51,689 bases of DNA from SAR86 cluster bacterium AG-422-P06 (GTDB taxonomy: Bacteria; Pseudomonadota; Gammaproteobacteria; Magnimaribacterales; TMED112), in assembly GCA_003213455.1 (NCBI GenBank), contig QCMX01000004.1, forward strand, positions 1 to 51,689, in the 5' to 3' direction. This document shows positions 9,695 through 42,482 of the stretch, piece after piece. A program made the position numbers and the translations under genes. Each line of letters starts with the position of its first letter. Within the stretch, counting starts at the first letter, position 1. A model generated the notes under the pieces. It had not been told where the DNA came from and did no database searches. It saw only the letters and a list, made by a program, of their open reading frames with translations.

Positions 9695-10412
9695 ATGGCT
9701 ATCGCATTTATTTCAGATCTTCACCTTGAACCAATAGAAAATACCAGACTTAAAACCTTCTATAACTTATTATCTGAAGCTCATAGCCGGTTTGATTCAC
9801 TCTATATTATTGGAGATTTATTTGAGTATTGGATTGGTGATGATGATAAGCACCCAGTTAATAAAGATATTATTCAAAACATTAAAAAAAGCTACTGATA
9901 GTGGCCTCAATATTTTTCTAATACATGGCAATAGAGATTTTTTGCTTGGCTCTAAGTTTGAAGAAATGACAGGAATCCAGATTATTGATGATATGACCAT
10001 TATCGAAGATGAATTTTGCAAAATTATGGTTTCTCACGGCGATGTATTTTGTACCGATGATATTGAATATCAAAATTTAAAGAAAACCTTACGATCTGAA
10101 GAATGGATAGAAAGCTTCCTATCTAGATCTATTGAAGAGAGAATTGATTTTGCCAATCAACTCAGATCCCAAAGCGCAGAATCTAGCAGCAATAAGGCAG
10201 AAAACATAATGGACGTAAATGCAGATTATGTTGATGAGGTTGTAGGTAAAAATAATCTAGATCTTTTAATACATGGTCATACGCATAGACCAGCTATTCA
10301 TAAACTCGATAGTGGTGCTTCTAGAGCCGTACTTGGGAGTTGGGAAAATAATGAGGGCTGGATAATTGAATATAAGCAAGGAAACATTGATCTCAAGTCT
10401 TTTCCACTCTAA
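9695..10412 (+). pseudogene. lpxH: UDP-2,3-diacylglucosamine pyrophosphatase, frameshifted
   Basis: LpxH cuts UDP-2,3-diacylglucosamine to lipid X in lipid A synthesis. All metallophosphatase motifs are present but in two frames. Frame one (9695-9898) has SDLHLE and GDLFEYWIGDDD and stops at residue 67. The other frame continues with ATDSGLNIFLIHGNRDF, HGDVFCTDD, the SSNKAENIMDVN region and HGHTHRPA to 10412. The break falls in A7 at 9884-9890; removing one A restores a full LpxH of normal length (about 238 residues). Because LpxH is normally essential, a sequencing or assembly error or slippage is as likely as true loss. The ATG at 9792 is out of frame with the LpxH reading before the shift, so it is not a real start. 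Confidence 0.88.
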
Positions 10413-10427
10413 TAATTTATTATAAAA

Positions 10428-10447
10428 TACTGTATAAATATACAGTA
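10428..10447 (+). promoter_or_regulatory. LexA box (SOS operator) of umuDC
   Basis: TACTGTATAAATATACAGTA is a near-perfect match to the gammaproteobacterial LexA operator CTG-N10-CAG, with symmetric TA flanks. It ends five bases before the umuD ATG. Possible -10 elements (TATAAA 10433-10438, TATACA 10439-10444) lie inside the box, so LexA would block the promoter directly and the mRNA leader would be nearly absent. Confidence 0.9.
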
Positions 10448-10452
10448 TTTTT

Positions 10453-10854
10453 ATGTTTTCGAGTAAAGATTATAAGGATCCCTTTTCCCACAAAAAGCTG
10501 AAAAACTCTGGCTTTCCAAGCCCTGCTAATGATTACGTAGAAAACCCTATTAATATTAATGACCTTTTAATAAAGAGAGCTAGTGCTACTTTCTTAATGA
10601 GGTTCAAAGGCAATGAAATGATTTTTTCTGGAATAAAAAATAATGCCATATTAATAATAGATAGAAGCCTTAAACCTGCAAATGGCAATATAGTAGTAGC
10701 CTCAATTAATGGTGAATTTCTTTGCAGAAAAATTCTCTTGGGAGCAAAAAAAGCTCTAGTTACCAATTGCCCAAACAATAAAATATTAGATATAGACAAA
10801 ATAATTAATTTTGAATTTCTTGGTGTTGTTACTTCCTCAATCAATAGGTACTAA
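10453..10854 (+). CDS. umuD: UmuD-like protein lacking the catalytic dyad
   Basis: 133 residues aligning along the whole of UmuD, the subunit that, once self-cleaved, forms polymerase V with UmuC. The cleavage-site region is kept (SGFPSPANDYVE; expected cut Ser19-Gly20), as is the fold (INDLLIKRASATFLMRF, NNAILIIDRS, NGEFLCRKIL, FEFLGVV). The nucleophile Ser (E. coli S60, GDSMI) is Glu55 in GNEMI and the general base Lys (E. coli K97) is Arg92. The codons GAA and AGA are clear. Self-cleavage should therefore fail. The start is set by the LexA box just upstream; the stop overlaps the umuC ATG. Confidence 0.88.
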   Translation: MFSSKDYKDPFSHKKLKNSGFPSPANDYVENPININDLLIKRASATFLMRFKGNEMIFSGIKNNAILIIDRSLKPANGNIVVASINGEFLCRKILLGAKKALVTNCPNNKILDIDKIINFEFLGVVTSSINRY

Positions 10855-12117
10855 TGTTTGCTTTAATTGACTGTAATAGCTTCTATGCCTCATGTGAAAA
10901 AATATTTAGACCAGATTTAAAGGATCGCCCTGTTGTAATTTTGAGCAATAATGATGGTTGTGTAATTGCAAGATCTTCAGAAGCTAAAAAAATGGGGGTC
11001 AGTATGACGCAGCCCTGGTATCAGATTAAAGATCAGTATTTATCTAAAGGAGGTATAGTCTTTTCATCTAATTATGAGTTTTATGCAGATATCTCCAATA
11101 GAGTTATGAATGTTCTATCTGATCTTTGTCCAGAAATTGATATATATAGTATAGATGAGGCATTTTTAGATCTAAGATCATTCAAAAAAAATATTGATCT
11201 AGTTAATTTCGCCTATGACTGCAAAAGAAAAATTAGAGAATGGGTTGGCGTCCCTGTAAGTATTGGCATAGCCCCGACCAAGACACTTGCTAAGCTTGCA
11301 AATAAAGTTGCTAAAGATGATCCAAGATTTGACGGGGTCGTTATTTTATCTGAGCCAAGAGTCATAAAACATTTTTTGAGATCTATGCCAGTTGAAAAGA
11401 TCTGGGGTATAGGCAAGAGACTAACTGCAAGACTTGAAAATATCGGAGTAAAAACCGCCCATGACCTAACACAAATAGATTCAAGGCTAATAGGAGATAA
11501 TTTTAATGTTGTGCTAGAAAGAACTGTTAGAGAATTAAAAGGCCAATCATGTATAACATTGCATGATTTTATGGAACCTAAAAAAACAAATAATGGTTAG
11601 CAGAAGTTTTGGGAGAAGTATAAGGACAAAAAACGTACTCAGTGAAGCAATTAGCTTCCACGCAAGCAGAGCTGCAGAAAAATTAAGGTATGAAAAACAG
11701 AAATGTAGATTAATAACTACCTTTATCAGATCAAATAGATTCAACACCAAGATCAAACAAATATATGCTTCCAGGTCGCTTGAATTAATTCATCCTACAG
11801 ACGATACAAGGACAATAATCAAGAGCGCAAATCGTATATTAGAAAAGATATATGCGAATGGTTACCAATATGCGAAAGCAGGTATATTGTTAAGTGATTT
11901 TACTGATAGCTATGGTTACCAAATGTCTCTCTTTGATAAAAAAAGGGATGAAAAAAGTGCATCAAAATTAATGGAAACCATCGACTACATTAATTTAATG
12001 GAAATAGCTAAAGTCGGGTTTGGAAATCAGGGTTATCAAAATACCTGGAAGATGAAAAGAGAAATAAAATCACAGAGATACACAACCAAAATTGATGAAA
12101 TTCCAATAATTAAGTAA
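10854..12117 (+). pseudogene. umuC: DNA polymerase V catalytic subunit, frameshifted
   Basis: Y-family translesion polymerase. The first part (10854-11600) holds the palm and fingers: DCNSFYASCE with the first metal Asp, NNDGCVIARS and SIDEAFLDL with the Asp-Glu pair, then the helix-hairpin-helix region KIWGIGKRL. It stops after DFMEPKKTNNG. The little-finger and C-terminal region continues in another frame (VSRSFGRSI, AAEKLRYEKQ, LIHPTDDTR, QNTWKMKRE, SQRYTT) to 12117. The break is A7 at 11580-11586; deleting one A joins them into a normal-length protein of about 420 residues. Same lesion type as lpxH. If real, the truncated form keeps catalytic residues but loses the little finger. Confidence 0.9.
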
Positions 12118-25289: not shown

Positions 25290-25309
25290 TACTGTATATA
25301 ATTACAGTA
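25290..25309 (+). promoter_or_regulatory. LexA box and overlapping lexA promoter
   Basis: TACTGTATATAATTACAGTA is a strong LexA operator ending one base before the lexA ATG at 25311. A perfect -10 hexamer TATAAT (25297-25302) is embedded in it and TTGTAT at 25273-25278 offers a -35 with an 18-base spacer. That places transcription start at about 25308-25311, at or next to the A of the start codon, so the lexA mRNA is probably leaderless. Confidence 0.92.
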
Positions 25310-25310
25310 T

Positions 25311-25901
25311 ATGTTAAACCTTACTGCACAACAGATCAAAGTCTTTGATGTTATCAAAGAATCATTACAGAGCAATGGTTATCCACCAACTAGGGCAGAA
25401 ATAGCAAAAATTTTAGATTTTAAATCTGTAAATGCTGCTGAATCACATATTAAAGCACTTGTTAAAAAAGGTGTTATTGAAAAGGTTCCAGGCTCTTCAA
25501 GAGGCATTAAGCTGGTAGAAGAAATTTCTGGAATACCGCTAATTGGAAGTGTAGCTGCCGGCAGTCCTATCTTAGCTTTCGAAAACGTTGAAAAAACCAT
25601 TCATTCAAATCCTCTTACAAAGTCAGTAGATTTTTTCCTAAGAGTACAAGGCGAAAGCATGATCGAAGCAGGTATCTTAGATAATGATCTTGTTGGAATA
25701 AGAAAAACAAGAAACGTTGAAAATGGGGAGATAATCGTTGCAAGGATAGAAGATGAAGTAACACTCAAAAGGTTTAAGAAAGATAGTAAAGGTATTAGGT
25801 TAGTGGCAGAAAATCAAAGTTTCTCCGACATCGAAATTGATGAACATTCAAATTTCTCTGTAGAGGGAAGAGCTGTTGGAATTATCAGAGAAGATATCTA
25901 G
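25311..25901 (+). CDS. lexA: LexA repressor
   Basis: 196 residues. Winged-helix DNA-binding domain 1-70 (GYPPTRAEIAKILDF, SVNAAESHIKAL, GSSRGIKL), linker, cleavage site Ala83-Gly84 (VAAGSP), and S24 peptidase domain with nucleophile Ser116 (GESMIEAGI) and base Lys153 (EVTLKRFKK). Both catalytic residues are intact, unlike in UmuD. The start matches other LexA proteins exactly. No Shine-Dalgarno precedes it. It is autoregulated through the adjoining box and should control umuDC. Confidence 0.97.
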   Translation: MLNLTAQQIKVFDVIKESLQSNGYPPTRAEIAKILDFKSVNAAESHIKALVKKGVIEKVPGSSRGIKLVEEISGIPLIGSVAAGSPILAFENVEKTIHSNPLTKSVDFFLRVQGESMIEAGILDNDLVGIRKTRNVENGEIIVARIEDEVTLKRFKKDSKGIRLVAENQSFSDIEIDEHSNFSVEGRAVGIIREDI

Positions 25902-35731: not shown

Positions 35732-35989
35732 ATGAGTCTTATTAAAAACCCAAAATGTATTTATAAGAAGGTTGATGGAATTGGAGTAATTCTAGAGCCT
35801 GAAAGTGGTAAATTTATTGAATTAAATTCAACTGCTTTAGAAATTTGGAATTTGCTTGACGAAATAGGAGATGCAGCCCTTTTAGAGAAAAAATTAATTG
35901 AAAAATATGAGATGAATGAAGCTATTGGTATTGATATAGCTGAATTTTTAACAAATGCTTTGGCAGCTAATATTATTATAAAAAATTGA
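35732..35989 (+). CDS. Lasso peptide B1-type leader-binding protein (PqqD-like RRE)
   Basis: 85 residues, a stand-alone PqqD-like RiPP recognition element: three-strand start with GVILEPESGKFIELN, then ALEIWNLLDEIG and a helical C-terminal part with LIEKYEMNEA. In lasso peptide systems the B1 protein grips the leader and presents it to the B2 protease. Its stop TGA overlaps the TTG start of the next gene. The identity follows from fold pattern plus strict adjacency to B2 and C genes. Confidence 0.88.
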   Translation: MSLIKNPKCIYKKVDGIGVILEPESGKFIELNSTALEIWNLLDEIGDAALLEKKLIEKYEMNEAIGIDIAEFLTNALAANIIIKN

Positions 35990-36381
35990 AAAACCAGCAA
36001 AAGCAATTAAGCATCAAGCATCATAAATTCTTTTACCTTAAAAATATATTTTTAGTTCTAACCGAATTATGTAAATTTTCATTAAGCAGTTTCGAGCAAA
36101 TAATAAATTCTCTAAAAAAACCAATTCCCAAAAATCACAAAAAAATTGCTGTTCTTTTTATCATAAAAAAAAGCACAAGATTATTAGATATCCTTAAAAT
36201 TAAATCTTGTTTTCTACGTTCCATAATAATTTTTAAATTACTGAAGAAGTACAATCATTCACCTAAACTGCATATAGGTATTAAGAGAGTTGAAAGCCTG
36301 TATTCCCATGCCTGGATAGAAGTTAATGATCTCAGAATAGATGCAAGCCGAGGCTTTGAAATATTTACAACGATAAAATGA
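35986..36381 (+). CDS. Lasso peptide B2 leader peptidase (transglutaminase-like)
   Basis: 131 residues, slightly short for B2 proteins (usually about 140-150). The C-terminal half is the Transglut_core3 cysteine protease: Cys75 in KSCFLRSIIIFKLL, LHIGIKRVE, His108 in SHAWIEVND and an Asp (Asp119 likely) completing the triad. B2 cuts the leader from the precursor after B1 delivers it. The start is TTG at 35986, overlapping the B1 stop; the end overlaps the cyclase start by 4 bases. The N-terminal 60 residues are basic and poorly conserved. Confidence 0.88.
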   Translation: MKNQQKQLSIKHHKFFYLKNIFLVLTELCKFSLSSFEQIINSLKKPIPKNHKKIAVLFIIKKSTRLLDILKIKSCFLRSIIIFKLLKKYNHSPKLHIGIKRVESLYSHAWIEVNDLRIDASRGFEIFTTIK

Positions 36382-38126
36382 CTAAATATTGCATCAAAAT
36401 AAATAAAAAATCGTTTTATGATCCTGCTGAATGTTCAGGCACTAATGTTGAATACAAAAATGACATTGCAGTTATTGGGGATTTAAGAATTGATAATAGG
36501 GCAGAACTGCAAAAAATTGAAAAATTAAGCCATACAAAAAGTGACGTTGAAATAATTGAATTTTTATATAAAAAATATGGTGAGAATTATATAAAAAAAA
36601 TTCATGGGGCATTTGCCTTCATTTTACATGACAAGCTTAATGGTCAGCTTTCAATTGCCAGGGATCAACTAGGCCAAAAAATAATCTACTATTTAGTAAA
36701 TAATAATGAAATTTATATTTCTTCATCAATACATGGTCTTTTAGATTATTCAGCAATTGAAAAAAAAATGAATCTCAATAGAGTCATTGATTTAATTGCG
36801 CATACTCATAGCCCATCCACAGAAACATTTTTTCAAGATATAAATTATTTAGAGCCTTCGACTATCATCCAGTTTAGTAAAAACAAAACTACAAAAAAAG
36901 AATTTAAATATAAATCTGATATTCACTTAAATAAGAATTTAAAAGAGTTATTTTATGAATCTGTGACATCTATTAAAGGTGAAAACTGTGGTTCAATGTT
37001 AAGCGGGGGTTTAGATTCCTCAGCTATATCAATAGCTCTTCAAGAATTAAGCAGAGAAAAAATTCAGTCATTTTCTGTTGTCTTTCCAGAACTTAGCCCT
37101 GAATTAAAAGCTATGGCTGATGAAGAAAAATATGTAAAAGAAGTTATAAAAAAACATGGAATGCACATGAATACAGTTCCTGTGAGTAAATTTAATTTCA
37201 TAAAAAATATTAGGGAGAACACGGCTTACTTTGAAGAACCATTCATGGCTACAAATACATACATTTATGAAGAAGTATTTAAAAAAATGAATGAAAAGGG
37301 AGTAGACATAGTCTTAGATGGCACAGATGGTGATAGTGTGATTTCTCATGGGACAGAAATCTTTAGACATTACGGGGAAAAATTTGAAATACAAAAATTG
37401 CTGAAATCAAAGAAAGATTACGATAGAATTCGCGGCAAAAAACACTCAGCTTTATCAACTTTGAGGACAATATTTTCATTTGTAATAATGCCTAGACTTC
37501 CAAAATGGTTATTTATTCAGTTAAAGAGGATAAAGAATACCGATTTCTTATACATGCAGAATATTTTGCTCAACAAAGCATTTAGAAAAACTAATGAGAA
37601 GCTTTATAAAGATGCAGAAAAATTATATAACCCAAAAAAGTCATTCAACAACTTTGCTGAAAAAGCACATCATATGATGGTTTACAATTCTCATTGGGAT
37701 GATGTTTTTAATATACTTAATATAATTGCGAAAAAATATAATGTAGAAATAAGGTTTCCTTTTTTCTATCAGCCTTTAGTAAATTTTTGCTTATCTGAGC
37801 CTGTTACAAACAAAACAAAAAATGGCGTAGATAGATATAATTTTCGAGAAGCTTTAAAAGAGCAATTACCTAAAAAAATATATGAAAGAAACTCTAAGTC
37901 AAATCTCAGTCCAATTTTTACTGAAAGTTTCATGAATATTGATCCAAATTACTCTAATGAAGTTTTTTTTGAAAAAGATTCTCCAATTTATAATCTTGTA
38001 GATCAAAAAGAAATAAAAAAATTATTAGATTCCAAAGACCCAAAAAAAAATCTTGCGATAATTTATACGTTTTTTAGCTTGTATGAATGGATGAAAAAAA
38101 ATCATTTTATTGTAACTATTGATTAA
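36378..38126 (+). CDS. Lasso peptide macrolactam synthetase (asparagine synthetase-like)
   Basis: 582 residues. The N-terminal Ntn-like domain (1-190) lacks Cys2, so glutaminase activity is absent, as in lasso cyclases. The C-terminal ATP-pyrophosphatase domain has the P-loop SGGLDSS at 209-215, FEEPFMATNTYIYEEVF and DGTDGDSVISHG, and ends with the arginine/lysine-rich segment before FTESFMN. The C protein adenylates an Asp or Glu side chain in the core and joins it to the new N-terminal amine. The gene is very AT-rich (line 36541-36600 has 10 G/C in 60) with intact A9 runs, suggesting foreign origin or relaxed composition. Confidence 0.9.
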   Translation: MTKYCIKINKKSFYDPAECSGTNVEYKNDIAVIGDLRIDNRAELQKIEKLSHTKSDVEIIEFLYKKYGENYIKKIHGAFAFILHDKLNGQLSIARDQLGQKIIYYLVNNNEIYISSSIHGLLDYSAIEKKMNLNRVIDLIAHTHSPSTETFFQDINYLEPSTIIQFSKNKTTKKEFKYKSDIHLNKNLKELFYESVTSIKGENCGSMLSGGLDSSAISIALQELSREKIQSFSVVFPELSPELKAMADEEKYVKEVIKKHGMHMNTVPVSKFNFIKNIRENTAYFEEPFMATNTYIYEEVFKKMNEKGVDIVLDGTDGDSVISHGTEIFRHYGEKFEIQKLLKSKKDYDRIRGKKHSALSTLRTIFSFVIMPRLPKWLFIQLKRIKNTDFLYMQNILLNKAFRKTNEKLYKDAEKLYNPKKSFNNFAEKAHHMMVYNSHWDDVFNILNIIAKKYNVEIRFPFFYQPLVNFCLSEPVTNKTKNGVDRYNFREALKEQLPKKIYERNSKSNLSPIFTESFMNIDPNYSNEVFFEKDSPIYNLVDQKEIKKLLDSKDPKKNLAIIYTFFSLYEWMKKNHFIVTID

Positions 38127-38153
38127 TAGAACAGATGGTGATATAAATCTCGT

Positions 38154-38306
38154 ATGGAAAAGAAACATACTTGGCATAAACCAACAATTAAAGTCTTTGA
38201 TTCAGCTAAAGACTTTATACAGGGCGTAGATACCATTGGTGGTGTAAAGAAAGAGATTGGAACACCGTCAGACACAGCCTTCGCCAATTCAATAATCTCA
38301 CCATAA
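38154..38306 (+). CDS. Lasso-type RiPP precursor peptide (A)
   Basis: 50 residues, ATG to TAA, between the cyclase and the kinase (27 and 3 bases away), so its position is exactly that of a lasso precursor. The leader has Trp7-x-Lys9-Pro10-x-Ile12, the aromatic version of the YxxPxL motif bound by B1, followed by a hydrophobic Val14-Phe15. Thr27 in VDTIGG is the natural -2 threonine, giving a 22-residue core from Gly29 to Pro50. The only acidic residues in that core are Glu34 (core 6) and Asp40 (core 12), neither at the usual 7-9. The C-terminus is NSIISP, with Ser49 next to last. Confidence 0.82.
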   Translation: MEKKHTWHKPTIKVFDSAKDFIQGVDTIGGVKKEIGTPSDTAFANSIISP

Positions 38307-38309
38307 TAC

Positions 38310-39176
38310 TTGAGAGTAAAACCTTTTAATTTAATTAATGTTCATGCGAACTTTTCTCATGATTTGTTAATAAAAAAAGATGTATTATCAAATGATTCAA
38401 ACTTAGAAATAAACCTTTCAGACAACAAAAAAATTGAAAAGGATTTTGTTTCAAGCTCGAAAATTTTTTTTAATAAAACTGGCATTGCTACTTATGAAAT
38501 TTTAGATGGCAGTGTAATTAATATATATCCTTATAAAAACGTTGATACAAATACTTTACTCTACTACGGGCTTCAAATACCTTTTGGGTGCGCTTGTGTA
38601 CAAAATAAGAAGCTTGTTTTTCATGCTTCAGTTGCCGAGAAAGATGGCAAATGTTTTGCTTTTTTAGGGAGTCCAGGTGCAGGAAAATCATCTCTTTTGA
38701 TTGAATTAATAGAATCTGGATGGAATTTTATAACAGAAGATATATGTGTCCTTGATGACGACTATAATCTTAATTTTATTAGCTTATTTCCATATATAAA
38801 GCTTTCAAATGAAGTTGCTACAAAGCATACAAATAAATTGATTTTAACTGGTATAAAAACAGATAGATTAGGCAGACAAACTTATCAGATAGATTTATCA
38901 AATGTTTCGGCAGGAGGCATTCTTGAATCTATCTTTATCCTCGATTGGAGCCAAGAAAAAAATTTATATCAACCTGCTGAATCAACAAAACTTAGACTTT
39001 TGCTAAATTATCTTGTGCCTTCTTTCCAAGCAAAAGCTAATAATATTCATATTGATTCCTATAAAAAAATACTTAAGCTTATCGATTCACTACCAATATT
39101 CGTGCTAGAAAGACCAAGATCTCTTGGCAAAAAAGTTATTCAAACAACAATCGATAGATTAAATTTTCTTATTTAG
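38310..39176 (+). CDS. HPr-kinase-like tailoring kinase
   Basis: 288 residues, TTG start three bases after the precursor stop. A poorly conserved N-terminal half is followed by the HPrK C-terminal fold: FHASVAEKDGKCFAFLG with conserved His105, P-loop GSPGAGKSS (120-128) and ITEDICVLDDD. No sugar phosphotransferase genes are near, so HPr is an unlikely substrate. In paeninodin-type lasso clusters such kinases phosphorylate the C-terminal Ser of the precursor; here Ser49 or Ser46 would be the candidate. The stop overlaps the convergent permease stop by 4 bases. Confidence 0.85.
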   Translation: MRVKPFNLINVHANFSHDLLIKKDVLSNDSNLEINLSDNKKIEKDFVSSSKIFFNKTGIATYEILDGSVINIYPYKNVDTNTLLYYGLQIPFGCACVQNKKLVFHASVAEKDGKCFAFLGSPGAGKSSLLIELIESGWNFITEDICVLDDDYNLNFISLFPYIKLSNEVATKHTNKLILTGIKTDRLGRQTYQIDLSNVSAGGILESIFILDWSQEKNLYQPAESTKLRLLLNYLVPSFQAKANNIHIDSYKKILKLIDSLPIFVLERPRSLGKKVIQTTIDRLNFLI

Positions 39177-39991
39177 TAATGTGATAATGTTCCTTTTTTT
39201 CTTGAGGTATCTATTGCTCTCGAAATAGATGAGTAACCCAAGACAAGATAGAAGATAGCTAAAAATAATAATTTTAAAGCAGAGAAATAAGAACTATTGA
39301 TATTACTTTCCTCGACTAATTCGTTTCTAACTATATCTAATGTATGAGTAAGAGGCATCAATTCAGAAAGATATATAAAGATTTGAGGTAAAACATCATT
39401 TGGGTAAATAGCACCTGAAATAATTAAGGGCCCTCCCACAAAGACTAAACTAAGATAGTCTCCCTTTTTATAAATGAGGATAATTGATAGACCTATCATT
39501 GATATGCCAATAAATGCTACCAGCGTAATACAACATACTGCTAGTAGTGTAATGATGTCTCGAATTGAAAGAATCTGATCACTTAGAGCCCATGAAACTA
39601 TAAAAATCAATAAGAGCCTTAGAAATGACTTTACAAATGTATAGAATACTGAAGATATAGATAAGAAAATAAATCTATTTTTTGAAACGAATAATTCTTC
39701 AATATATCCAAAGCTTTGAGCTTCCCTCAAATTATTACTGATAGCTGCGTAAGACTGCCCCATTAGATTAACTATTGAAAAACCTGTGATAGAAAAGAGA
39801 AAGAATTCTCCTTTAAACCTGCTGTAAAAAGAGTCCTCAGAAAAATTAAATGACTTGGATAAGAAAAATAAAAAAAATACTAATAAAAAGGCAAAAACTA
39901 GTTCAGTAAAAAAACTTAGCTTATATGAAAATTGAAAGAGGAAATCTTTTTTGAATGATGCCCTTAGAATGTTTAAATAACTAGCCAGCAT
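39173..39991 (-). CDS. ABC-2 type transporter permease
   Basis: 272 residues with six hydrophobic segments (roughly 25-48, 66-80, 108-137, 140-172, 180-200, 240-260), the layout of an ABC-2 export permease. The stretch YIEELFVSKNRFIFL lies on the cytoplasmic side, as in drug and polysaccharide exporters. It overlaps its ATPase by 11 bases. Pointing into the RiPP operon, it is a candidate peptide exporter, although lasso exporters are usually single fused polypeptides. Confidence 0.82.
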   Translation of the reverse strand: MLASYLNILRASFKKDFLFQFSYKLSFFTELVFAFLLVFFLFFLSKSFNFSEDSFYSRFKGEFFLFSITGFSIVNLMGQSYAAISNNLREAQSFGYIEELFVSKNRFIFLSISSVFYTFVKSFLRLLLIFIVSWALSDQILSIRDIITLLAVCCITLVAFIGISMIGLSIILIYKKGDYLSLVFVGGPLIISGAIYPNDVLPQIFIYLSELMPLTHTLDIVRNELVEESNINSSYFSALKLLFLAIFYLVLGYSSISRAIDTSRKKGTLSHY

Positions 39992-40607
39992 TGAGTGATT
40001 CCATATGTAATATTGAGTCAGAAGATTGCTTTAAGAAGTTTATGTCATGCGAACTAATTAATACATTTTTTAAGCTATTATTTACAATCTCCTCCTGCAA
40101 AATTTTTACAATATTTTTAATTGATACCTCATCAATTGAAACAAAGGTTTCATCTAATATCAAAATATCAGGTTTATAAATTAGAGCACGAAGTATTGAT
40201 AATTTCTGAATCTCTCCTGTTGATAAGTTAGATACATTTCTGTCTAGCAAAGCAGATAAGCCTAGAATATTTGCTATTTGCTTTAATCTTTTATTAAAAA
40301 TAAATTTTCTGCCAGTTCTTGCGGTAAAGAAATAATCTAAATTTTCATAAGCTGTAATTCTATTAATAAAGGCCCTTTGATTACTGGCAACATAGCACAC
40401 ATTTGATTTGACAGGATCAAAAGCGACTGAGCCAGAATCTTGAGCTATTAACCCTGCTATTATTTTGAATAATGTTGTCTTGCCCGACCCATTTGAACCA
40501 TAGAAGGCATAAATTTTTTTGTCCTGCAATTCGAGACTAATATTAGTTAATACTTTTTTTGATGGCTTGTTTGAAAATGATTTATATATATTATTTAAGA
40601 AGATCAT
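39981..40607 (-). CDS. ABC transporter ATPase
   Basis: 208 residues from the ATG at 40607. A start further upstream (40700) would run across xthA and adds a sequence with no match to the ABC fold, so I reject it. Motifs: Walker A GSNGSGKTT (37-45), Q-loop VASNQRAF, signature LSTGEIQKL, Walker B DILILDETFVSIDE and switch His in SSHDINFL. It forms an exporter with the downstream permease. Its start codon is only 4 bases from the divergent xthA start. Confidence 0.9.
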   Translation of the reverse strand: MIFLNNIYKSFSNKPSKKVLTNISLELQDKKIYAFYGSNGSGKTTLFKIIAGLIAQDSGSVAFDPVKSNVCYVASNQRAFINRITAYENLDYFFTARTGRKFIFNKRLKQIANILGLSALLDRNVSNLSTGEIQKLSILRALIYKPDILILDETFVSIDEVSIKNIVKILQEEIVNNSLKNVLISSHDINFLKQSSDSILHMESLNAG

Positions 40608-40611
40608 AATT

Positions 40612-41412
40612 ATGTTAGTTATCACTTTTAATGTTAATGGAATCAGGGCAAGAATCCACCAATTAGATGCTTTAATCCAAAAATATAGTCCTGATATCAT
40701 CTGTTTACAAGAGATTAAAGTTTCTGATGAGGATTTTCCTTATACAACCATAGAGGAATTAGGCTATAGAGTTTTTAACTATGGTCAAAAAGGTTTTCAC
40801 GGTGTTGCAATTTTATGCAAAGTAGAGCCACTTAATGTTGTCAGGGGCCTAGATGGTGGTAAAGATGAAGAACAAAAAAGATATATTCAATGTGATTTTA
40901 AATCTAAAATTGGCACAATTTCTATATGTAACTCTTATTTCCCACAAGGGGAGAACAGGAAACATGAATTAAAGTTTCCATATAAAGAGCGCTACTACAA
41001 AAGAATTACTGAGCACCTTAAAAAAATTAAGAATAATTATATTGTGACTGGTGATTTCAATATAGCGCCTCTAGCAGTAGATAGGGCAATCGGTCTAGAT
41101 GCTGAAAAAAGATGGTTAAGAGAAGGTCATACAGCTTTTTTATCTGAAGAAATTGAATGGTTTTCAAATCTGACTGCTATTGGTCTTGAAGATATTTGGC
41201 GAAAAAATAATCCTAATGAAAATATCTCAACTTGGTTTGACTATCGATCTAGGGGTTTTGAAAGAGAACCGAAGAGAGGTTTAAGAATTGACTTTTTCCT
41301 CACAAATTTAGGTTTAAGAGATACTTATGTTGACTCAAAAATTGATCATGAAATTAGAGCAATGGATAAACCCTCTGATCATTGCCCTGTAACTCTTAAA
41401 TTAAATATTTGA
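40612..41412 (+). CDS. xthA: Exodeoxyribonuclease III
   Basis: 266 residues from ATG 40612, which gives MLVITFNVNGIRAR as in E. coli XthA. The longer frame from 40519 is antisense to the ABC ATPase and is rejected. Motifs: LQEIKVSDEDFP with the metal Glu, YGQKGFHGVAIL, GDFNIAPLAVD, and SDHCPV with the catalytic Asp-His. It is the AP endonuclease and 3'-5' exonuclease of base excision repair. A housekeeping gene lodged between RiPP genes is odd and may mark one edge of an inserted locus. Confidence 0.95.
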   Translation: MLVITFNVNGIRARIHQLDALIQKYSPDIICLQEIKVSDEDFPYTTIEELGYRVFNYGQKGFHGVAILCKVEPLNVVRGLDGGKDEEQKRYIQCDFKSKIGTISICNSYFPQGENRKHELKFPYKERYYKRITEHLKKIKNNYIVTGDFNIAPLAVDRAIGLDAEKRWLREGHTAFLSEEIEWFSNLTAIGLEDIWRKNNPNENISTWFDYRSRGFEREPKRGLRIDFFLTNLGLRDTYVDSKIDHEIRAMDKPSDHCPVTLKLNI

Positions 41413-42482
41413 TGAGACTGAATCTACTCAAAACAATCTTTGATAACTCTATAACCTCAAGCTCTTTGTCGAACAATGAGTTAGAAGGTCTTATGAAGAC
41501 CTGTGAAAAACATAGGATCAAACAAATATTCATCGATCATATGGATATGGTTAAGGATCATAGAGCAAATTATAGAGAATATGCAAAAAAATATACTCGT
41601 TATTCATTAACGAGAGACTTAAACATCCTGAGTGAGATAGACAAGCTTGCCCTACTTCTGGAAAGCAGAAAAATTAACTTTGTTTTCTTAAAAGGTGCAG
41701 CATTTAAAAAAGCATTATATAAAAAATCAACTTTTAGAGATTGTAGAGACATTGACGTATTAGTAAGTACTAAAGATGTTAAACCAACGCTAGAAACTCT
41801 ATTTGAAAATGGTTACAAGTATGTCGTGGCTCAAGAAAGTCGAAATACTCAAATTGATTATGAGAATAGTCATCAAGCTCCTGTTTTATTTTCTCCTAAC
41901 GGGCAATATGTTGAGATACATTACAGGTTAACTATGGAAAATAAGAAATGTCTCATTTCTGATGATATGCTTCAGCAACAAAAAAATTATATTGGACCTA
42001 ATAGCCTGAATCTAATTCATATTGCCTATCATGCATTGATAATTAATAAGCTTAATAATGGGCTGATGTCTTTAATAGATATTAATTATTTGCTGAATGG
42101 TACTTCAAAAAATGAGGTCATTCATGCTGCAGAAAAATATAATTTGAGCGGGAAGATCAAACATATGATAGAGCTTTATGAATTTAACTTATTTAACAAG
42201 CAATTTAATCATAATAAAACAGAAATATTATTAATATCAAATGAACTTATACATGCTGGTGAAGTATTAGTTGGTTTTAAAGCACACTCAAGAAGCTTAA
42301 ATATTTTTAAGAAAAAATATTTGGGCAAGGAAGGGGGCAAGTTAGATTCTTTAAGAATAAATATTTCATTTATAAGATATATCTTTAATAAATTATTTTT
42401 TCACATTGTGTCTGTAATAAAAAATCCAAATTTATGGAGTAAAAGAAATAGGCTAAAAAAATATTTAAAGAAAGAAGATTAG
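41412..42482 (+). CDS. Nucleotidyltransferase family 5 protein, putative RiPP tailoring enzyme
   Basis: 356 residues from the ATG at 41412; a TTG one codon earlier is also possible. Core motif VFLKGAAFKKALY then RDCRDIDVLVSTKDV carries the metal-binding acidic pair of NTP_transf_5 (PF14907); HQAPVLFSPNGQYVEIHYRL follows. Such genes recur beside lasso clusters that also encode HPr-like kinases, so it probably belongs with the RiPP locus despite xthA lying between. It shares TGATG with xthA and converges on DUF962 with a 4-base overlap. Its substrate is unknown. Confidence 0.8.
   Translation: MRLNLLKTIFDNSITSSSLSNNELEGLMKTCEKHRIKQIFIDHMDMVKDHRANYREYAKKYTRYSLTRDLNILSEIDKLALLLESRKINFVFLKGAAFKKALYKKSTFRDCRDIDVLVSTKDVKPTLETLFENGYKYVVAQESRNTQIDYENSHQAPVLFSPNGQYVEIHYRLTMENKKCLISDDMLQQQKNYIGPNSLNLIHIAYHALIINKLNNGLMSLIDINYLLNGTSKNEVIHAAEKYNLSGKIKHMIELYEFNLFNKQFNHNKTEILLISNELIHAGEVLVGFKAHSRSLNIFKKKYLGKEGGKLDSLRINISFIRYIFNKLFFHIVSVIKNPNLWSKRNRLKKYLKKED

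Follow-up and report, generated by a model that had tools for sequence, protein, structure and literature searches.

In textbook accounts mutagenic repair is restrained by a delay, the RecA-driven cleavage of UmuD. In E. coli, full-length UmuD carrying S60A blocks mutagenesis, and together with UmuC it lowers UV mutagenesis (PMC3901139). The engineered E. coli variant UmuD3A (T14A L17A F18A) and the truncation UmuD18 are uncleaved, hold their arm weakly and are structurally like UmuD'; UV mutagenesis from UmuD18 in E. coli is low only (PMC5342242). HumD of phage P1 is made already short, as the equivalent of activated UmuD' (PMC7092418). An AlphaFold model of Pol V has UmuC touching UmuD' through its C-terminal carboxylate, at S36, T71 and K73, with E69 near. 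In this model the N-terminus of UmuD' also contacts UmuC, lying within its cleft close to DNA and to the active site (PMC11791011). Residue identities agree when the numbering is shifted by 24, and on this basis we equate S36, T71, K73 and E69 with S60, T95, K97 and E93. In the open-access literature we found no paper joining UmuD and SAR86, and no description of a chromosomal UmuD lineage without the Ser-Lys dyad.

The window, meaning the whole stretch of DNA that was analysed, is 51,689 nt of SAR86 cluster bacterium AG-422-P06 (contig QCMX01000004.1). Its umuD gene (10453..10854, + strand) encodes 133 aa and was identified by profile search and alignment. The ORF matches Pfam Peptidase_S24 (PF00717) at E 6.5e-15, among solved structures it is closest to those of E. 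coli UmuD and UmuD' (E 1e-18), and an AlphaFold model of the TMED112 protein matches the UmuD' structure 1ay9 in Foldseek at E 9e-8, which supports the fold. In the alignment E. coli GDSM is replaced by GNEM, placing Glu55 (codon GAA, 10615..10617, +) at the position of the nucleophile Ser60, and GEFTVKK by GEFLCRK, placing Arg92 (codon AGA, 10726..10728, +) at that of the general base Lys97. We assign the protein to UmuD by its S24 fold and sequence likeness and by its gene context, with umuC next downstream and a LexA box ahead of it. The UmuD model NF007621 gives it 107.9 bits, slightly below the cut-off of 110, and annotation tools either miss such UmuDs for this reason or call them an 'autoproteolytic subunit'. 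It falls outside the HumD family, with an arm of 19-20 residues in all 18 copies found and 74.8 bits from model NF051876 against a cut-off of 120.

A perfect LexA operator, CTGTATAAATATACAG (10430..10445, +), stands 7 nt upstream of the umuD ATG, and a CTGTAT...ATACAG box is found 6-10 nt ahead of the umuD start in all 18 relatives. The lexA gene of the window (25311..25901, +) encodes the sole other S24 protein of the genome; its AAG cleavage site, Ser and Lys are intact, the last two within GESM and TLKRF, and its own LexA box (25292..25307, +) has one mismatch to CTGTATNNNNATACAG. A first-pass annotation of this DNA had described a UmuD homologue with Ser replaced by Glu55 and Lys by Arg92, with the fold and the SOS operator kept, beside a LexA that keeps both catalytic residues. 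The alignment, the profile and structure matches, the perfect box and the LexA motifs bear out each of these points.

We searched 21 genomes of the genus and found umuD in 18; the 21 include one complete chromosome besides MAGs and single-cell genomes. No other genus of its family, TMED112, is represented in the genome set, in which SAR86 comprises four families. None of the 18 UmuDs has Ser at the Ser60 position (14 Glu, 3 Asp and 1 Gly) and all have Arg at the Lys97 position, spelled by five different codons (AGA, AGG, CGA, CGC and CGT). The same reading is found in the named genomes SAR86 cluster bacteria MED-G166 and TMED112 and in the complete chromosome TMED112-A1 (CP097968.1), as well as in AG-349-I13, AG-912-P10, AG-907-K13, AG-898-K03 and AG-917-O15, whose AG- names we take to denote single-cell genomes. 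Because single cells and the complete chromosome read alike, a MAG or assembly artefact is ruled out. A viral origin was also considered and rejected: no relative was found in IMG/VR, and phage and plasmid matches were all below 60% identity.

The umuC gene (10854..12117, +), whose start overlaps the umuD stop, is split in the window into two ORFs (10854-11600 and 11563-12117). The break is one additional A in a seven-A run at about 11574-11580, relative to MED-G166. The window lpxH gene (UDP-2,3-diacylglucosamine diphosphatase, 9695-10412) is likewise split: compared with MED-G166, its A run at about 9884 is longer by one A. Both insertions resemble errors of base calling or slips of very recent date. 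In all 17 relatives the umuC frame is intact, at 420 aa. The first-pass annotation had seen a broken umuC and offered decay of the operon as one explanation. A split frame beside a UmuD without its dyad is what a dying umuDC operon might look like, and the split does exist in the window, but it is the one-base change just described; against decay stand 18 copies over a diverse genus, the retained operator and a umuD dN/dS of 0.053 (median of 10 unsaturated pairs), to be compared with 0.018-0.073 in three other SAR86 families. Intact relatives together with relaxed selection on this copy were to have meant plain decay; the three sister families are intact, but selection on TMED112 umuD is not relaxed. 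With both substitutions fixed in 18/18 at a dN/dS of about 0.05, decay is refuted for the lineage, and we give it almost no credence as an account of this operon.

Elsewhere in the window, a lasso-peptide-like gene set lies at 35732-42482. It comprises a small PqqD-like ORF recognized by eye (35732-35989), a transglutaminase-like B2 gene (35986-36381), an asparagine synthase (36378-38126), an HPr-kinase-like ORF with no match in the Pfam search (38310-39176), an ABC transporter (39173-40700) and a nucleotidyltransferase (41409-42482); a precursor gene was not found in this set.

Outside TMED112 the dyad is kept almost throughout. Ser60 is present in 60/60 UmuDs of the three other SAR86 families, and Lys97 likewise except in one genus (g7) of family f3, where four loci (L031, L032, L035 and L038) have Arg. 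What this genus shares with TMED112 is the Lys97 to Arg change; unlike TMED112 it retains Ser60, the 28-residue arm and P-x-F. Because g7 sits inside f3 in the UmuC tree, its Lys97 change is a separate event, independent of that in TMED112. At high pH LexA K156R is still partly active, and K97R alone is no proof of lost cleavage. Both residues are kept in all 26 loci surveyed from the class, in 3 more from a scan of named genomes and in 68 of 71 further Pseudomonadota UmuDs, E. coli included. Three proteins depart from this. Two are enterobacterial and armless (L168 and L171), with Lys97Arg but an unchanged Ser60; they are not close to P1 HumD, which rules out that identity. The third, a MAG protein of the same phylum (L197, G719 contig 294), has Asp at Ser60 and an unchanged Lys97; it adjoins lexA and umuC and comes from a single MAG in a one-genome family. 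In one SAR86 genome umuDC is present twice in tandem, with about 4.8 kb between the copies (L061; G114, 704500-713000). Among the armless HumD-like phage proteins (L225-L232) the Ser60 column holds His, Cys, Tyr, Ala or Val and the Lys97 column Lys, Arg, Met or Ala, so that in proteins without an arm the dyad drifts.

The N-terminal arm is remodelled as well. In the window it has 19 residues (10453..10509, +), and in all 18 TMED112 UmuDs 19-20; sister UmuDs mostly have 27-28, apart from one genus with 21. The TMED112 arm lacks the P-[LIYF]-[FY] motif and includes a basic HKKxKxS stretch (HKKLKNS in the window). At P3 the near-invariant Val22 is replaced by Lys (Lys17 in the window) in 18/18, which no other UmuD in the survey has there, and P1 is Ser in 18/18. 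Thus the self-cleaving S24 features, namely the Ser nucleophile, the Lys base and a canonical cleavage site (hydrophobic P3, Ala/Cys/Val-Gly), are absent from all 18 proteins. Of the Ser19-Gly20 cleavage region that had been reported as kept, the P' side is conserved, with GFPSPA, the beginning of the UmuD' part, at 10510..10527 (+), while the P side has changed. The arm has a dN/dS of 0.12, and its proximal half 0.066; since it is conserved, with two invariant Lys (Lys14 and Lys17), it does something.

A constant Ser-Gly junction and a near-constant arm length are what might be expected if the arm were removed in trans by another protease (LexA, Lon, ClpXP or other), and Lon and ClpXP do act on E. 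coli UmuD (PMC5342242). The Lys at P3 argues against such removal, as does the shortage of candidates: a PF00717 search of the genus for a second UmuD or other S24 protease returned LexA, UmuD and, in four genomes, 89-aa ORFs. The latter (L150-L153) are signal-peptidase-like, follow a Ni-SOD-like gene (HCDIPCKVYDP) and weakly match signal peptidase and Ni-SOD maturation protease models; each is a probable SOD maturation protease. Cutting in trans, which the first-pass annotation had also proposed, is accordingly unlikely.

The changes extend beyond the dyad and the arm. We call a column strictly changed when it is conserved in the sister families and its residue is never shared by TMED112. There are 10 such columns of 133 in UmuD and 6 of 420 in UmuC (Fisher p 0.001), and those in UmuD include S60, two arm residues (P16 and V22) and three in a conserved loop (N111, Y114 and P116). 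That both catalytic positions changed together in one lineage, with Arg92 invariant, could suggest that Glu55 and Arg92 form a working protease site of new, non-Ser/Lys chemistry. We find this scarcely credible: Glu, Asp and Gly all occur at position 55, a variation incompatible with an essential nucleophile, and the losses extend to the substrate side and to the N-x-x-Y-x-P loop that sister families conserve.

The account we favour, and consider probable, is that TMED112 UmuD is a never-cleaved chromosomal form which serves UmuC as a ready-made UmuD'-like subunit. RecA-stimulated self-cleavage would have been permanently lost from the chromosomal UmuD of this family, with the umuDC operon still under LexA repression. 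Once LexA has been removed by DNA damage, UmuD would pair with UmuC directly, as an uncleaved dimer. The shorter arm, without P-x-F and Val22, is probably no longer packed over the body as an inhibitory arm; the AlphaFold model of TMED112 UmuD has pLDDT <50 over most of residues 1-39, and arm docking is not readable from it. The invariant Arg92 probably retains the positive charge that in the Pol V model anchors the UmuC C-terminal carboxylate, and Glu or Asp55 may pair with it; that position 97 would meet this carboxylate would explain why it stays positive whereas position 60 varies. The retention of the GFPSPA half of the cleavage region is explained by the same model, in which this end of UmuD' is buried in UmuC. 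We infer the lack of any cleavage, the free arm and the UmuD'-like activity from these comparisons. The cleavage timer of Pol V would then be gone, leaving LexA repression and RecA-ATP activation as controls. Among the options of the first-pass annotation, an uncleaved protein acting as a constitutive form is the best supported.

The S60A result in E. coli points the other way, since dyad loss alone would be inhibitory; our argument therefore rests on the remodelled arm, which is altered in the same region as the arms of UmuD3A and UmuD18. If that result, and the retention of the arm under purifying selection, are instead given full weight, UmuD would be locked in the inhibitory uncleaved state, and UmuD2C would act as a damage checkpoint only, without lesion bypass. 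Such a locked state is rather unlikely given the polymerase. UmuC keeps catalytic D6, the SIDE motif and the QxxLF clamp motif in 17/17 relatives, has a dN/dS of 0.062 in the family and is the sole Y-family polymerase found in TMED112 genomes; moreover, the features that hold the arm to the body are the very ones altered. In the UmuC tree the 17 TMED112 rows form one group with 100/100 support and a long stem. By analogy with the phage proteins, a UmuD' lacking the dyad is probably able to work in Pol V, because the GDSM serine is gone from P1 HumD and its N15, HK140, HK639 and phiKO2 homologues in our alignment, in which the P1 column is ambiguous by one residue.

For the arm within this never-cleaved UmuD we tentatively raise a further possibility, for which the Pol V model is the guide. 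The uncleaved basic arm (Lys14, Lys17) might be a working part of the polymerase that reaches the primer-template, and it could alter fidelity or put a DNA-contact switch in the place of the cleavage switch. Were this so, Pol V would have been rewired from two-step to one-step SOS control.

On the never-cleaved reading, a whole family of abundant, streamlined surface-ocean bacteria would do without the cleavage delay while keeping its polymerase under strong selection, and an SOS mutagenesis response without that delay is predicted. The purpose of the cleavage step could thus be tested in TMED112 as a natural experiment.

Set beside E. coli UmuD/UmuD', the S24 subunit of Pol V, TMED112 UmuD is alike in fold, in its umuDC operon, in its LexA box and in the GFPSPA start; it differs in lacking Ser60 and Lys97, in a 19-residue arm without P-x-F, and in the Lys at P3. 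The engineered UmuD3A and UmuD18 resemble the form proposed here in being uncleaved and UmuD'-like, with a weakly held arm (PMC5342242), but they are laboratory variants whose dyad was not the part changed, whereas in TMED112 the dyad is lost. The nearest precedent is HumD (phages P1 and P7; N15 gp26, phiKO2 Gp23 and HK140), which is likewise a natural UmuD-family protein without cleavage. HumD is phage-borne and armless and starts with MGFPSPA, and no umuC was seen beside it in the P1 and N15 stretches read; TMED112 UmuD retains an arm, though a remodelled one, and has a UmuC of its own. Dyad loss, seen in the armless phage HumD, thus occurs too in an arm-bearing chromosomal UmuD.
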